DNA of 64,000 bases from Planctomycetota bacterium. Its GTDB lineage: Bacteria > Planctomycetota > B15-G4. Under the pieces are notes generated by a model. It was not told the origin of the DNA and did no database searches. It saw only the letters and a program-made list of their open reading frames with translations. The translations under genes were made by a program, and so were the position numbers. Shown one piece after another: positions 39,869-47,615 of this stretch; the stretch's first letter is position 1, and the number at the start of each line of letters is the position of its first letter. The stretch covers positions 1 to 64,000 of the forward strand of contig BQJR01000005.1 of NCBI GenBank assembly GCA_021604805.1, given 5' to 3'.

Positions 39869-39998
39869 CTAGGTGGTTTTTGGGCTCGCCTCGGCGGGCG
39901 ATTTGGCAGTGTGGAAGGCCAGCTCGGCGGGAACGAGCACAGGCTCAGCAGCCTGATCAAAGCTTGCGCGATGGGACGACCCCAGCATCGACTGAAGA

Positions 39999-41240
39999 AT
40001 GTCACGACCAACTGTTATTAGCCTATTCACAGGAGCGGGAGGCCTTGACCTAGGGCTGGAGGCTGCAGGGTTTCGGACGTCTGTTGCGGTTGAGTCAAAC
40101 CCCAATGCCGTGAGGACCCTTCGTGAGAATCGCCGCTGGAACGTTTTAGCCAACGATATCCACGAACTGAGCACGCAGCAGATCCTCGATGCCGCAGGGC
40201 TGAAACATGGCGATGTGGATCTCGTTGCCGGCGGCCCCCCGTGCCAGCCGTTCAGCAAGTCTGCGTACTGGGCCACGGGAGATTCAGCTCGCCTTGATGA
40301 CCCTCGTGCAGGAACAATGGGAGCGTTCATGCGCGTGGTTCGAGACGCTCAGCCTCGAACGTTCTTGATTGAGAACGTCCCCGGCCTTGCCTACCAGCGT
40401 AAGGATGACGGCTTGACGTTCATTCAGCGCAGCATCAGCGCGATTAATCGTGCAACAGGCTCGAAGTATCAGCTGAGCATTCACATGCTTAACTCAGCTG
40501 CCTACGGCGTTCCGCAAGAACGCGAGCGACTTTTTCTCATTGCGCACCGAGACGGCCTCGAGTTTTCCGCCCCGCCTCCGACTCATGGGCCACCGGGCAG
40601 ACGGGACAGCCTCACAGCAGACTCCACCGGTGGCCGCCAGCTCAGCGCATTCACGACAGCCTGGGATGCAATCGGTGATCTCGAGGACGCAGACGACCCG
40701 GACCTCAAGCTGACCGGCAAGTGGGCAGACTTGCTGCCTTCTATCCCCGAGGGAAAGAACTACCTGCACCACACCGCTCGTGGAGGCGGCAAGCCGCTAT
40801 TCGGGTGGCGACGCAGGTACTGGTCGTTTCTGCTCAAATTGGCAAAACGCCTCCCATCCTGGACGATCACTGCCAATCCTGGCTCTGCGATCGGGCCATT
40901 CCATTGGAACAACCGCCGGCTCTCGATGCGGGAGCTATGCCGCATTCAGACCATCCCGGATGACTACTACATCGTCGGATCGCGGCAGGCATATCAGAAG
41001 CAGATCGGGAATGCCGTTCCGTCGGCTCTTGCAGAAACTTTGGGCATTCACATTCGGCGTACATTGCTAAACCATCGAGTGAAGAGCCGCGGTTCAACTC
41101 TAACCCCTGAGTTCAACAGGCCTCATCCTCCAAGTTCACGCCCTGGGCGAGTTCCGAAGAAGTACTCTTCGCTCATCGGGGAGTACCCGGAGCACCCTGG
41201 CGCCGGGCTCGGCCCCGGCGCACTCAGCCGAGACACCTAG
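39999..41240 (+). CDS. C5-cytosine DNA methyltransferase (Dcm family)
   Basis: This is a 413-residue type II-like methyltransferase. Motif I is LFTGAGGLDLG (9-19). The catalytic Cys82 lies in GGPPCQPFS (motif IV). Motif VI is ENVPG (125-129), motif VIII QERERLFLIA (173-182), and motif X QIGNAVP is near residue 340. The target-recognition region (about 190-310) is unlike any I know, so the methylated site cannot be given. The final 45 residues after the catalytic domain are Pro/Gly-rich and not part of the family core. It opens the island operon and should mark host DNA so that the following genes spare it. Confidence 0.95.
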   Translation: MSRPTVISLFTGAGGLDLGLEAAGFRTSVAVESNPNAVRTLRENRRWNVLANDIHELSTQQILDAAGLKHGDVDLVAGGPPCQPFSKSAYWATGDSARLDDPRAGTMGAFMRVVRDAQPRTFLIENVPGLAYQRKDDGLTFIQRSISAINRATGSKYQLSIHMLNSAAYGVPQERERLFLIAHRDGLEFSAPPPTHGPPGRRDSLTADSTGGRQLSAFTTAWDAIGDLEDADDPDLKLTGKWADLLPSIPEGKNYLHHTARGGGKPLFGWRRRYWSFLLKLAKRLPSWTITANPGSAIGPFHWNNRRLSMRELCRIQTIPDDYYIVGSRQAYQKQIGNAVPSALAETLGIHIRRTLLNHRVKSRGSTLTPEFNRPHPPSSRPGRVPKKYSSLIGEYPEHPGAGLGPGALSRDT

Positions 41241-41256
41241 AGAGACTGAGATTCGG

Positions 41257-42819
41257 ATGGCCGAAGATACCGACGGCGCGCAAGAGTGTATCAGCATTCA
41301 ACCTGGTGTCAGCGTGCTCGCGGTGCTCAGGCACCTCAACTACAAACCATGGTTTGCACTTGCGGAATTCGTCGACAACTCGATCGAGAGCTTTGCTCGA
41401 AGCAAAGCAGAGCTCACTTCAACTGAACACACGCCATACGTCCAAGTTGCGATTGAGACTACATCTGACGATGGTGGCAAGATCAGCATCCGAGACAATG
41501 CCGCAGGTATCAGTGGCCTAGAGTTCCCGCGTGCATTTCGCCCCGCTGAGATCCCACCCGATCGAAATGGCCTGTCTGAGTTCGGCATGGGAATGAAGAG
41601 CGCAGCGTGTTGGTTTGCACCTCGATGGGACGTACGCACATCGGCGATTGGTGAGCCGGTCGAGCGCCTCGTAGAGTTCGATATCGGGAGGATCGTCCGG
41701 GATGAGCTACGCGAACTAAGAGTGAATACTACCCCTGCTCCCCCAGATGCTCACTTTACTGAACTGACCCTTCGGGGCCTCCACCGAGTGCCAGCCGGTC
41801 GAACCCTTGGCAAGATCCGAGAGCATCTTGCCGACATCTATCGAGTATTCCTCCGCAGCGGAACACTTCGACTTACGGTCAACGGCGAAGAGGTCGTGCA
41901 TGATCACCCAGAAATCTTGACAGCTCCCGCAACGTCCGCCGACGGTGAGGAGACCGGCCCACAGCTTGAGTGGCGGTCGGAGATCGATCTGAACTTTGGC
42001 GATGGCCTGAGAGTCAGCGGCTTCGCCGCGCTGCGGAAACAAGCAAGCACTACGCACGCCGGATTCTCTTTGTTCAGACGCAATCGACTGATAGTGGGGA
42101 GCGCCGACGAAAAGTACCGACCTAAACTGATCTTCGGCGCGCCAAACTCCTTCACCTACCAGCGCCTCTTCGGCGAGCTTCACCTTGAGGGGTTTGAAGT
42201 CAGTCATACGAAAGACGGCTTTCGCTGGGACGAGAATGAGGAGCCCTTCATTGAGCTGCTGAAGGAGCATCTGGACTCGCCCCCCACTCCTCTCTTGAGA
42301 CAAGCGAAGCACTACCGCACAAATAGAAACTCGAAGGAGTCAGATGACGCCGCCTATGCGGCCACCGAAGGGGCCAGTAAGGCATTGAGCAACTTCGGTG
42401 CCACGGCACTTGAGAAGGCCGCTGCAACACCGGAAGCGCACGACCCGCCACGTGAACTGCCGAGCGCTTCGAAAATCGACAAGCGGGTTGTAGATATCGA
42501 CTTCGCCGATCGAAGGTGGCGCGTAGTGCTGGAGGTCAGCCAGGATCCAGCAGTTGGAAGCTGGCTAGAAGTTAGTGAATCGGTACTCAAGGGAATCGAT
42601 GATGCGGGTAGGGAGCTACTCGGACTAAGAATGGCCTTAATGCACCCATTCATGCAACGCCATGCGGGATCTGACTTTGGAAATGTTGACGCGATGTTTA
42701 GGCTCGCTGTCGCGATAGGACTCGCCGAGAAGCTGGCGCGCGACGGCGGAGTACGCGAAGCGGGCGCAGTTCGACGGAAAATGAATCGTTTATTAAGGGA
42801 AGTTCTTTCAAGGGGTTGA
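41257..42819 (+). CDS. MORC/MutL-like GHKL ATPase
   Basis: This is a 520-residue protein with an N-terminal Bergerat-fold ATPase. The Mg-ATP motif is EFVDNS (Glu37, Asp40, Asn41), motif G1 is RDNAAGI (Asp80, Gly84) and motif G2 is FGMGMKSA (109-116). A transducer-like S5 domain follows (about 185-345, with FRRNRLIVG and EVSHTKDGFRWD containing a lysine that could reach ATP). The last 130 residues (about 390-520) are an unassigned domain, RRWRVVLEVSQD onwards. Such proteins accompany restriction-modification-type operons and are prokaryotic relatives of eukaryotic MORC. It follows the methyltransferase by 16 bases and precedes the Z1 gene by 1 base. Role: ATP-dependent clamp or loop-holding motor on DNA (inferred). 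Confidence 0.9.
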   Translation: MAEDTDGAQECISIQPGVSVLAVLRHLNYKPWFALAEFVDNSIESFARSKAELTSTEHTPYVQVAIETTSDDGGKISIRDNAAGISGLEFPRAFRPAEIPPDRNGLSEFGMGMKSAACWFAPRWDVRTSAIGEPVERLVEFDIGRIVRDELRELRVNTTPAPPDAHFTELTLRGLHRVPAGRTLGKIREHLADIYRVFLRSGTLRLTVNGEEVVHDHPEILTAPATSADGEETGPQLEWRSEIDLNFGDGLRVSGFAALRKQASTTHAGFSLFRRNRLIVGSADEKYRPKLIFGAPNSFTYQRLFGELHLEGFEVSHTKDGFRWDENEEPFIELLKEHLDSPPTPLLRQAKHYRTNRNSKESDDAAYAATEGASKALSNFGATALEKAAATPEAHDPPRELPSASKIDKRVVDIDFADRRWRVVLEVSQDPAVGSWLEVSESVLKGIDDAGRELLGLRMALMHPFMQRHAGSDFGNVDAMFRLAVAIGLAEKLARDGGVREAGAVRRKMNRLLREVLSRG

Positions 42820-42820
42820 G

Positions 42821-44977
42821 ATGAGTGCCTTATGGGAACCAGTCGTTGGGCCTGAAACCGAAGCACTTCTTGCGCGTTCTGTGCCCAGCCAAGCAAGAGA
42901 TGCGATCCTCGAATCGGCACTAGCGGTACTGGGGCAGTGCACCGCTCCTACCGCACAGCAACCGAGTCGAACGGGGCTCATCGTCGGCTATGTACAGAGC
43001 GGAAAAACGCTCTCGTTTACGACAGTAGCTGCACTCGCGAACGACAACGACTTCCGCATGGTCATCATGATCGCGGGGACGACCCGAAACCTGTCTCAGC
43101 AATCAGTAGAACGTCTCATCAACGACCTGGGAGTCAACGAGTCATCCTTCTCCAGATGGACTCACATTCACAACCCCGATGAGACATCTGCTGCACGAAT
43201 GCGCGACGTACTTGCGGAGTGGGATGACCCGAACGTAGATCCAGCAGATCGACGGGTCTTGCTTCTCACGGTACTGAAGCACCACCAACGCCTGGAATCG
43301 CTTCTTTCTTCACTCCGGCTTCTTGGCGATGGAGCCAGTAGCCCCACGCTCGTGATTGACGACGAGGCCGATCAGGCGAGCCTCAATAATCGAGTGCGAG
43401 TCGGTGAGTTAAGCACGACCTACGGCCACATCCGCGACCTTCGCGACGCACTCCCACATCACAGCTATCTTCAGTATACCGCAACGCCTCAAGCCCTACT
43501 CCTGATCAACCTAATCGACATCCTCTCTCCAGAGTTCACAACAGTCCTAGAGCCGGGAGTCGGATATGTAGGGGGTGCTCAGCTGTTTGGGGGCGACTCT
43601 CAGCATGTGCACACCATTCCAACGAACCAAATCCCCACTCCCACTTCCCCGCTGAATGAGCCTCCAGAGTCACTGAAAGAAGCACTTCGTTTATTCATCG
43701 TAGGTGTGGCCTCCGGGATCATTCGGCGTGGAAGGGAAGCCGCTAACCGATCCATGTTGATTCATCCGTCGCGCGAAACGGTCGGCCACGGGCAGTACTT
43801 TACGTGGGTACAGGCGATTCGCACTCATTGGATGGAGGTTCTCGACCTACCAATGGAAGACGAGGACCGAATCTTCCTGATTGCTGAGTTCGAACGCTCA
43901 CACCGCGACATCTCTCAAACAGAATCCGGCCTCGAACCATTCTGCGATATCGAACCTAGACTTTTACAATCGCTTAGACGCACCGATGTCCGCCTGGTTA
44001 ATTCACAGCGACAAGCTGATCGTGACATTCAGTGGCGGCAGAATTATTCATGGATACTAGTGGGTGGACAGGTGCTCGATCGTGGATTCACGGTCGAGGG
44101 GCTAACGGTTACATACATGCCACGAGGACCGGGAGTCGGCAATGCTGACACGATTCAACAACGGGCAAGATTCTTGGGTTACAAAGGGGAGTACCTCGGA
44201 TTCTGCCGCGTCTTTCTCGATGCTGCAGTAGCGCACGCCTACCGGGTGTACGTGGAGCACGAGGAGGACATTCGCGCACAACTTCAGTTGGTGGAGACGT
44301 CGGGCAAGCCTCTCACAAGTCTCCGGCGCACTTTTCTCTGCGATCGACAGCTCCGCCCCACACGAAGAACTGTTCTCGACATCGACTTCACTCGCCCCGC
44401 GCTCCCGCACGGATGGTGCATCCCCCACGCTCCGCATTGGTCACCTGATGCCATTGCGGAGAACCGCGGTGTAGTTGAAGCGTTTCTATCAAGTGCCCAC
44501 ATTGACTTTCGCGATGACGACGGGCATGGCGATCGCACCGAGTATCAGCGACACAAAGTTGTTGATGCGGTACAGTTACAGCAAGTCTACGACGACCTAC
44601 TCACGCGGCTGCGGTACCCGGATTTTGAAGATGGCCAACGGTGGGTTGGAACACTAATAGTCATCGATCGACTCTTACACGAGGACCCGCAAGCGACGTG
44701 CGCGCTTTATAAAATGCGACCTTCAGTCGCTAGCATGCGGACGTTGAACGATAAAGGGCGTATCGAGCAGCTCATGCAAGGTGCGCATCAGAGCCGCCGG
44801 GAAGTCTACCCTGGCGACCGACGGATTCACTCCGACCCAGTAACTATTCAGATTCACGAACTAGATCTTACTGAGAGTGGCAGCTCCACACCGGCCTGGG
44901 CCGGAGTGATCGTCACACCAATCTGGCTTAGCAGAAGTGCCCGGCGTGACCTCATCAGTCAACCTCAAGGAGGCTGA
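42821..44977 (+). CDS. Z1-domain superfamily 2 helicase-like protein
   Basis: This is a 718-residue protein with the Z1 domain. Walker A is GYVQSGKT (56-63). The Walker B/DEAD equivalent is DDEAD (180-184). The family motif QYTATPQALLLINLID is present, then GGQVLDRGFTVEGLTVTYMPRG and DTIQQRARFLGYKGEYLG, the arginine-finger region. No nuclease motif is visible in the N or C extensions; the last 200 residues are not conserved in any family I know. Z1 proteins occur almost only beside methyltransferases and GHKL ATPases, and are thought to be the DNA-translocating part of such systems. Here the usual partner with a PD-(D/E)XK nuclease is missing. Confidence 0.93.
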   Translation: MSALWEPVVGPETEALLARSVPSQARDAILESALAVLGQCTAPTAQQPSRTGLIVGYVQSGKTLSFTTVAALANDNDFRMVIMIAGTTRNLSQQSVERLINDLGVNESSFSRWTHIHNPDETSAARMRDVLAEWDDPNVDPADRRVLLLTVLKHHQRLESLLSSLRLLGDGASSPTLVIDDEADQASLNNRVRVGELSTTYGHIRDLRDALPHHSYLQYTATPQALLLINLIDILSPEFTTVLEPGVGYVGGAQLFGGDSQHVHTIPTNQIPTPTSPLNEPPESLKEALRLFIVGVASGIIRRGREAANRSMLIHPSRETVGHGQYFTWVQAIRTHWMEVLDLPMEDEDRIFLIAEFERSHRDISQTESGLEPFCDIEPRLLQSLRRTDVRLVNSQRQADRDIQWRQNYSWILVGGQVLDRGFTVEGLTVTYMPRGPGVGNADTIQQRARFLGYKGEYLGFCRVFLDAAVAHAYRVYVEHEEDIRAQLQLVETSGKPLTSLRRTFLCDRQLRPTRRTVLDIDFTRPALPHGWCIPHAPHWSPDAIAENRGVVEAFLSSAHIDFRDDDGHGDRTEYQRHKVVDAVQLQQVYDDLLTRLRYPDFEDGQRWVGTLIVIDRLLHEDPQATCALYKMRPSVASMRTLNDKGRIEQLMQGAHQSRREVYPGDRRIHSDPVTIQIHELDLTESGSSTPAWAGVIVTPIWLSRSARRDLISQPQGG

Positions 44978-45039
44978 GGTGACGTTGGCTCCCAGATGAA
45001 GCGACGGATCCGTCAGGCGGTTCGTGAGGAGCCGCCCCC

Positions 45040-47615
45040 TCACCCGCGCAGACTCTCCGCCGGGCGCACGCGCAACGCCTTCGCGCTCGCGGCCAAGCCC
45101 GAAAGCGCGGCGAGTGTCGCGGTCAGCAACGCCGCGACGGGCAACCACCACCACGGGATCTCGCCCGGCAGCTCGGTGACCCACTTCAAGAACGCCCACG
45201 CCAAAGTGAGCGCGCCGAGTGCACCGAGCGCGCCGGCGACCAAACCGAGCAAGCCGTACTCGATGGCGAGCAGACTCGCGACGCCCTTGCGCGTGACGCC
45301 GAGTGTCTTGAGCAACGCGGCTTCGCGGCGACGTCGCCAGGCGTGCGCCGACACGGAACCGGCGAGCACGGCGAGCCCCGTGAACACGGTGAACAGTCCC
45401 AGCGCGCGGATGCCCATGGCGAGACGGTCGAGCAACTCGGCGAGCTTGCTCAGGATGCGGCGCACGTCGAGCAGGGTCACGTTGGGGTAGGCCACGGCCA
45501 AGCGGTCTTGCACGGGCGCGGTGAGGTCGGCGCCGCTGTCGTCGTCGAGGCGCGCGGTGGCGAGGCGCGCGTGCGGCGCGTCGTCGAGCACACCGGGTTC
45601 GACCACCAGGAAGAAGTTGATGCCGAAGCTGCGCCACTCGACCTCGCGCAGGCTGGTCACCGTGAGCTCGACGGGCACGCCTTGCACGTCGAACGCGAGC
45701 ACGCTGCCGAGACCGAGGCCGTGGTCTTCGGCGAAGTCCGCTTCGAGGCTGGCTTCGTCGACACCGGGTTGCGACCACAGCTCGCCGGCCACGATCGTGT
45801 TGTCCTCGGGCAAACTCTCCATCCAGGTGAGACGACGTTCGCCGCGGAAGCCCCAGCGGCCGCGACCGCGACGCCGGCCGCCGCCCTCCTCGCGCGCCGC
45901 TTCGCGCAGGTCGTCTACTGACACGCCGTCGACCGCGCGGAAGCGGGCCATCAGGATCGGCACCGACTCCACGTTGCGCGCGCCCTCTTCCTGCAGCACG
46001 GTCTGCACGCCGCCCCACTGGTCGCGCTGGATGTCGACGAAGAACGCGCTGGGCGCCTCCTCGGGCAGCGCGCCGCGCATCTCGGAACTGATGCGCGCGC
46101 CGATGACTTCCATCGCGAGCACCACGAGCACGCCGAGGCCGAGCGCGACGAGCGCCCCGCGAGTTCCGGCCGACGGGCGACCGAGCGCGGCCACACCGTT
46201 CAGCACGTACGGCGACAGACGTTCGCGCGGCAAGCGCCCCGCGAGCCCGGTGAGCGCGCGCGCCACGCCGCTCATCAACAGCACGAGCACCACGAGCCCG
46301 CCGATGAAGGCACCCGCTTGCTCCACGCGCTCGCTCTGCCACCACGCCGCCGCGAACAAACCCACGAGCAAGGTGCCCCAGCACGCGATCGACACGAAGC
46401 GCGGCGCGGGCAAGGGTTGCGCGTCGGCACGCAGAACGAGCGCGGGACTCACGCGCCACAACGCGGCCAGCGGCGGCGCGGCGAACAAGAGCGCCACGCC
46501 CACGCCGAGCGCAACACCGCGCAACAACGCCCAAGGCTGCCACGCCACGACCAACTCACTCGGCAACAACTCCGGCAACGCCTGACTCAACAACCAGGGC
46601 AAACTCATCCCGAGCGCGGCGCCGAGCAGCGAACCGATCAGCGCCAAGCCCGCCACGTGACCGAGCGCCATCAAGAGCAACTCACGCGGACGCAAGCCGA
46701 GGCAACGCAGCGTGGCGAAGGCGCGCAGTCGCGCCGCGATCCAAGCGCGCACGATCTGCGCGACGCCCGTCCCGCCGAGCAAGAGCGACAACAAGGCCAC
46801 GAGCCCGAGCGTGTTCTCGAGCCGACCGACCGAACGCTGCAACCCAGGTTGCGCCCGCTCGTGACTATCGACGTCCACGAGTTCGTGTTCGGCGAGACGC
46901 TCTTCGAGGATGTCCTTCAGCGCTTCGGCGGCGGGCGCGCCCGGCGGCAACAGGAACAGCGCGCGGTGCCGCACGCGACTGCCGAAGCCGAGCAGTTGCG
47001 TGCGATCGAGGCCGGCTTTCGAGAGGAACACGCGCGGACCGAGCGTGAGTGAGAAGTCGAGGCGGTCGGGTTCGTCGAGCACGGCGGCGCGCACGACGAA
47101 GCGTTCGCCGCCCACGAGCAGCTCGTCGCCGATGTCGAGGTCGAGCACGCGCAGCAGTTCGGGGTCGGCGGCCACGCCGTCGTTGCCGAGGAGCTCGTCG
47201 AGCGCGGCTTGCGGTTCGAGCACCAGCTCGCCGTGCAGCGGGAAGCGGCCGCGCACGACTTTGAGGTTGGCGAGTTGGCTGCGGCCGGGCGGCGCGCCTT
47301 CGGGCACGGCGGCCGCGACCATCGAGGCCATCTCGTAGGTGTCGGTGCGCTCGTGGCCGGGCGCGAGTTCGACCATGTGGTCGTCGAGTTCGGCGGGCAC
47401 GCGCGACTCGGTGCCGAACATGCGCGCGTCGACGGCGAGGTCGGCGCCGAGCAAGTTGCGCGATTGCGACGCGAGGCCTTCGCGCAGAGCACCCGACAAG
47501 GCCGACACGCCCACGACAGCAGTGACGCCGAGCGCGAGACAGGCCGTGAGGAACACGAGCCGCGAGCGCGACCCGCGCGATTCACGTCGCAGCGCGGCGA
47601 ACAACACGCCGAGCT

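Follow-up and report, generated by a model that had tools for sequence, protein, structure and literature searches.

A three-gene operon in a Planctomycetota genome encodes a C5 cytosine DNA methyltransferase (DCM), a MORC-family GHKL ATPase, and a DEAD-Z1 helicase-like motor; a fourth gene, encoding DUF4420, is present in nearly all relatives of this operon and is absent here. We take the operon to be, with a probability of about 0.7, a horizontally acquired MORC-type restriction-modification operon (DCM-MORC-DEAD-Z1) that has lost its fourth gene by deletion at the 3′ edge of its island. The analysis covers the first 64,000 nucleotides of contig BQJR01000005.1 (GenBank assembly GCA_021604805.1), here called the window, and the operon's relatives in other genomes.

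Operon layout and encoded proteins

The three genes lie on the plus strand at window positions 39999-44977, separated by 16 and 1 bases. The DCM gene (39999..41240; 413 aa) was identified with Pfam DNA_methylase (PF00145; E value, 2e-52) and the catalytic motifs FTGAGG, PPCQ, ENV, and QIGNAVP. It is followed on the same strand by the MORC gene (41257..42819; 520 aa), identified with PF13589, the MORC motif, and an AlphaFold model, and by the Z1 gene (42821..44977; 718 aa), identified with PF10593, the Z1 motif, and an AlphaFold model. The GC contents of the DCM, MORC, and Z1 genes are 0.593, 0.565, and 0.557 (GC3, 0.64, 0.59, and 0.57), compared with 0.70 in the flanking genes (GC3, 0.88 to 0.92), and the island as a whole has 55 to 60% GC in a chromosome of 70%. 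The gene order, the spacing, and the low-GC island of the original prediction, which had been made from the sequence of the window, are all confirmed by these coordinates and by GC and GC3.

The island is set among housekeeping-type genes, with RecD2, CutC, and glycosyltransferase 2 on the left and an FtsX permease, an ABC ATPase, and a GDSL esterase on the right. On the left, the junction and the operon's upstream region (39869..39998) come after the native glycosyltransferase gene. The right junction (44978..45039) consists of 62 bp between Z1 and the minus-strand FtsX-type gene, the stop codon of which is at 45040, in agreement with the earlier statement that the native chromosome resumes about 60 bases past Z1. 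No repeats of at least 8 bp are common to the two island ends, and the hairpin at the right junction is no stronger than those of shuffled sequences. In same-family genomes, the genes flanking the island on its two sides match separate contigs, so no empty site was recovered there.

The ATPase matches Pfam HATPase_c_3 (PF13589; E value, 8e-14), and its Bergerat residues (E37/N41, D80xxxG84, GLSEFGMGMK, and K319) are invariant or nearly so in an alignment of 45 sequences, which bears out its description as a GHKL ATPase with all Bergerat motifs. By the family-defining motif of Iyer et al., it is a true MORC: the signature GhXhhpXXRhl is present as GFSLFRRNRLI at residues 269-279 of the S5 domain, and the motif was matched in every surveyed locus. 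The GHKL and S5 domains span residues ~10-340 and are followed by a helical linker (359-390) and a C-terminal domain (404-517), modelled as a four-stranded sheet and then helices. The AlphaFold model has a pLDDT of 88, and its PDB matches are MORC3, MORC2, and Hsp90.

The motor matches Pfam Z1 (PF10593; E value, 1e-34). Little or no variation occurs among 40 aligned sequences in Walker A (GYVQSGKT), in Walker B (DDEADQ), or at the QQRAR arginines, and the predicted Z1 helicase with Walker A and B motifs is upheld. The Z1 signature DThhQXuRhFG reads DTIQQRARFLG, with L for F, as it does in loci L018, L019, and L060. Comparison of C termini with those of relatives indicates that the protein is complete through the conserved QPQGG. 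Its AlphaFold model (pLDDT, 88) comprises an SF2 helicase core and a C-terminal extension and matches SF2 helicases in the PDB.

The DCM is 24 to 37% identical to the DCMs of most relative operons and is closer to those of loci L099 (59%), L050 (56%), L107 (52%), and L115 (46%). By these identities, it belongs to another lineage than the DCM of most relatives, and the methylase seems to have been exchanged between such systems. The DCMs of L050 and L107 are convergent with DUF4420; that of L115 lies upstream, as in the window. At L099 (L099:7457-9838), the nearest match of the window DCM is followed a few bases on by a gene of the MTaX1 family (PF20296), and the C terminus of the encoded protein contains a PDF...IECK stretch, which makes it possibly the restriction nuclease of that locus.

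DUF4420 in relatives of the operon

Relatives of the MORC protein were sought in 84,980 species genomes; 304 turned up, and the best 80 of these were surveyed, with loci from plasmids, the window's phylum, Rhizobiales, and viral contigs added. The survey is weighted to the closest MORC relatives, and several of the loci are fragments of metagenome-assembled genomes. A tree was built from 85 loci, 79 of which could be judged: L030, L065, L091, and L096 are cut by contig ends, and L003 and L056, which lack DUF4420 and are visibly broken, were kept out. One of these, on a Hymenobacter plasmid (L003:5171-11782), is a decayed system in which MORC and Z1 are interrupted, DUF4420 is absent, and an annotated HNH gene stands next.

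A gene for DUF4420 (PF14390), a PD-(D/E)XK protein, follows Z1 on its 3′ side in 73 of the 79 loci that could be judged, and the two nearest relatives of the window operon are among them, in line with the earlier remark that such sets are usually accompanied by a nuclease gene. In this survey of the best 80 of 304 relatives and the added loci, the DUF4420 gene of 70 loci starts immediately after Z1 or overlaps its end; DUF4420 also occurs in L098, L107, L113, and L115 and in all eight judgeable viral-contig loci, three of which are near-duplicates. Five representatives were confirmed with Pfam, and most copies display the PD-(D/E)XK motif (D-x(n)-E-V-K).

The sister group of the window operon consists of L018 and L019 (support, 0.995). 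L019 has DUF4420. In L018, the closest relative, the contig ends inside the start of DUF4420, and that genome holds the remainder on a different contig. Since both members carry the gene, its absence from the window is derived; on this phylogeny, four genes are the norm, and that form is the ancestral one for the group to which the window belongs. The genome of L018 (G398) also holds, on contig C142 (C142:2-1039), a second, partial DUF4420 C terminus after the first, a partial tandem duplication.

Two loci from the window's own phylum, L098 and L107, carry DUF4420. L098 (L098:6921-12571) has a gene that appears HNH-like by eye directly before MORC in addition to DUF4420 after Z1, and its convergent DCM is from a different lineage. 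In L107, a 222-aa gene without a Pfam match (L107:4752-5420, minus strand) lies between Z1 and DUF4420. Locus L115 has a DCM of the window type upstream, followed by MORC, Z1, DUF4420, and Vsr.

DUF4420 is absent from six of the 79 judged loci, namely, the window, L025, L033, L037, L042, and L046. It was not found elsewhere in the genomes of the last five, and control genomes were positive. L025, L042, and L046 are clean three-gene forms, and L033 and L037 have the three genes plus Vsr, which is Pfam confirmed in L037. The three-gene form thus recurs as a minority. Three of the five other loci, all from Rhizobiales, form one clade (support, 0.999) beside the DUF4420-bearing L050: L037 (7557-13093, with Vsr in the place of DUF4420), L042 (7653-12755), and L046 (7650-12728). 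Their genes are intact and conserved, and the proteins are 68 to 77% identical in pairwise comparisons, with pN values of 0.16 to 0.24. Synonymous sites are saturated, which makes the dN/dS ratio unusable, and pN alone was used. Low pN together with saturated synonymous change argues that selection kept the three proteins, and, judging by this clade, the form without DUF4420 may be stably kept. DUF4420-less loci are clustered on the tree, with four changes compared with a mean of 5.9 after shuffling (P = 0.005). For this selection to have continued once DUF4420 was gone, there must have been a single old loss; the clustering points that way without proving it. In L046, 8 bp lie between the end of the operon and the 3′ end of a tRNA-Leu gene (L046:12728-12821), which suggests a tRNA-linked integration or deletion point.

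Probable loss of the nuclease gene and alternative readings

No Vsr, HNH, or DUF4420 gene adjoins the window operon. At the right junction, where relatives carry a gene of ~1 kb, tblastn and hmmsearch detected no trace of DUF4420. The assembled genome of the window (G000; 89% complete) likewise gave no DUF4420 match with PF14390 or with profile A7; the latter is the search trusted, as it has positive controls (DUF4420 found in G398 and G400) and the PF14390 search was without a control match. The prediction of an operon with no visible nuclease gene is thus borne out at the locus and across the assembled genome.

An AAGGAGG sequence lies within the C-terminal codons of Z1, and 5 nt on is the frame GTG ACG TTG GCT CCC AGA TGA, six codons and a stop (44979-44999), located where DUF4420 begins in relatives. 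From this position, the feature (44967..44999, plus strand), found by direct reading and suggestive only, may be the stub of the lost fourth gene; it is too short to be proof. No remnant of DUF4420 DNA is visible past it. As no more than 62 bp separate Z1 from the native gene, the missing nuclease gene would have been removed rather than have decayed in place.

Loss of the nuclease from this copy is probably a better explanation of the window operon than a nuclease-free design, because a nuclease gene follows Z1 in nearly all judged loci, both nearest relatives among them. A point against loss is that neither an empty site nor a near-relative four-gene copy displays the deletion itself. As DUF4420 is found in almost all relatives and was most probably lost in the window, the operon would be largely ordinary, a few persisting cutterless relatives aside.

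By family membership, the methylase of a complete four-gene system would mark self DNA, and the DEAD-Z1 protein, like H.CglI, would use ATP to translocate along double-strand DNA. A MORC dimer would close on DNA with ATP and couple recognition to cleavage, and DUF4420 would cut unmodified DNA, giving ATP-dependent restriction. In the window, all three components (methylase, clamp, and motor) seem intact; this copy should methylate DNA and perhaps bind and move on it. Lacking its own cutting subunit, it would be a non-cutting remnant or be in a solitary-methylase state, unless a nuclease acts in trans. The window operon most likely no longer restricts by cutting. If the three genes do not restrict, they offer a clear case of a restriction system that lost its cutter and kept its methylase and motors.

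The original prediction had put forward, as one of two options, a nuclease-free, methylation-guided defence in which invading DNA is silenced or compacted. In such a design, methylation would mark self DNA, and unmodified DNA would be trapped, compacted, or stripped, but not cut, by the MORC clamp together with the Z1 motor. Part of it stands: DUF4420-less forms recur, with just four changes on the tree for the six loci; the Rhizobiales clade retains all three proteins with conserved catalytic residues; and the C-terminal domains showed neither a nuclease fold nor a conserved catalytic triad. What runs against it is the rule among relatives, in which a nuclease gene regularly follows Z1 (73/79), the window's ancestors included, so that its absence here is better read as a loss. 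Two of the DUF4420-less loci, L037 and L033, carry a Vsr gene, and independent recent losses, with selection predating the loss, would give the same pattern in the clade. We regard this design as unlikely for the window operon, and we think it quite unlikely that DUF4420-less DCM-MORC-Z1 is a variant, repeatedly evolved and maintained by selection, that keeps out foreign DNA with no nuclease of its own. If a three-gene form did restrict DNA alone, it would be a bacterial model and counterpart of eukaryotic MORC silencing. The contrast can be tested with the 73 operons that have the nuclease gene and the six that do not, three of which form an intact clade.

Very unlikely, in our estimate, is continued restriction through a nuclease supplied in trans, either another restriction enzyme of the cell or a DUF4420 encoded in sequence missing from the assembly. 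The incompleteness of the genome (89% complete) would leave room for such a gene, and unlinked partners have been suggested for some GHKL proteins (PMC2292703). Against this, two profiles found no DUF4420 in the assembled genome, and where relatives have the gene, it adjoins Z1, with one open reading frame between them in L107.

A nuclease domain concealed in the C terminus of MORC (residues 390-520) or Z1 (residues 500-718), proposed earlier as a possible effector, is almost certainly not present and was rejected after comparing profiles, searching for motifs, and modelling structures. The two domains, neither of which has a Pfam name, are conserved and contain conserved polar residues (H463, R482, and N510 in MORC; R503, R515, N548, D666, Q677, and H679 in Z1), but the same domains are also found in DUF4420-carrying relatives. 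Alignment of the two C termini to DUF4420 with hhalign gave probabilities of at most 1%, compared with 100% for the control (DUF4420 halves). The MutL endonuclease motif was found in 0 of 45 sequences, and there is no conserved D-ExK set. For both models, the top-ranking PDB matches are ATPase or helicase folds; these searches are led by the ATPase and motor cores and so alone do not exclude an unknown C-terminal fold.

Comparison with known systems

A literature search, mostly outside subscription journals, found no experiments on any such operon and one passing mention of DUF4420 function. Among characterized systems, MZA (MzaB and MzaC) shares a GHKL ATPase beside a Z1 protein, and the window proteins have weak similarity to both. 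Membership in MZA was rejected, with scores of 25.8 bits against a cutoff of 850 for MzaB and 98.2 against 1500 for MzaC, and the remaining MZA genes are absent from the window operon.

CglI has a translocating motor of the DEAD family, and its nuclease is a separate subunit (PMC5737866, PMC4267653). The window operon shares with CglI and NgoAVII a C5 methylase, a DEAD-family motor, and one further subunit; it differs from CglI in having the MORC ATPase in place of the nuclease R subunit, and no R homologue is present in the operon. The window Z1 is 26% identical to a Z1-like reading frame of Neisseria gonorrhoeae (tblastn), and Corynebacterium glutamicum encodes a Z1 protein.

The third operon type of Iyer, Abhiman and Aravind (2008) combines a MORC protein, a helicase with the Z1 motif, and, consistently, an endonuclease of the restriction fold; cytosine methylases and Vsr are frequent in its neighbourhoods too, and MORC proteins were proposed to loop DNA between recognition and cleavage sites (PMC2292703). 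The link drawn earlier to these systems is supported by the presence of both the MORC and Z1 signatures. The window operon differs from this type in that the adjacent E-D-ExK endonuclease (NRE; here DUF4420/PF14390) is found in neither the window nor the rest of the assembled genome, and it shares the MORC-motif GHKL ATPase, the Z1-motif SF2 helicase, the cytosine methylase, and the compact operon on a mobile island.
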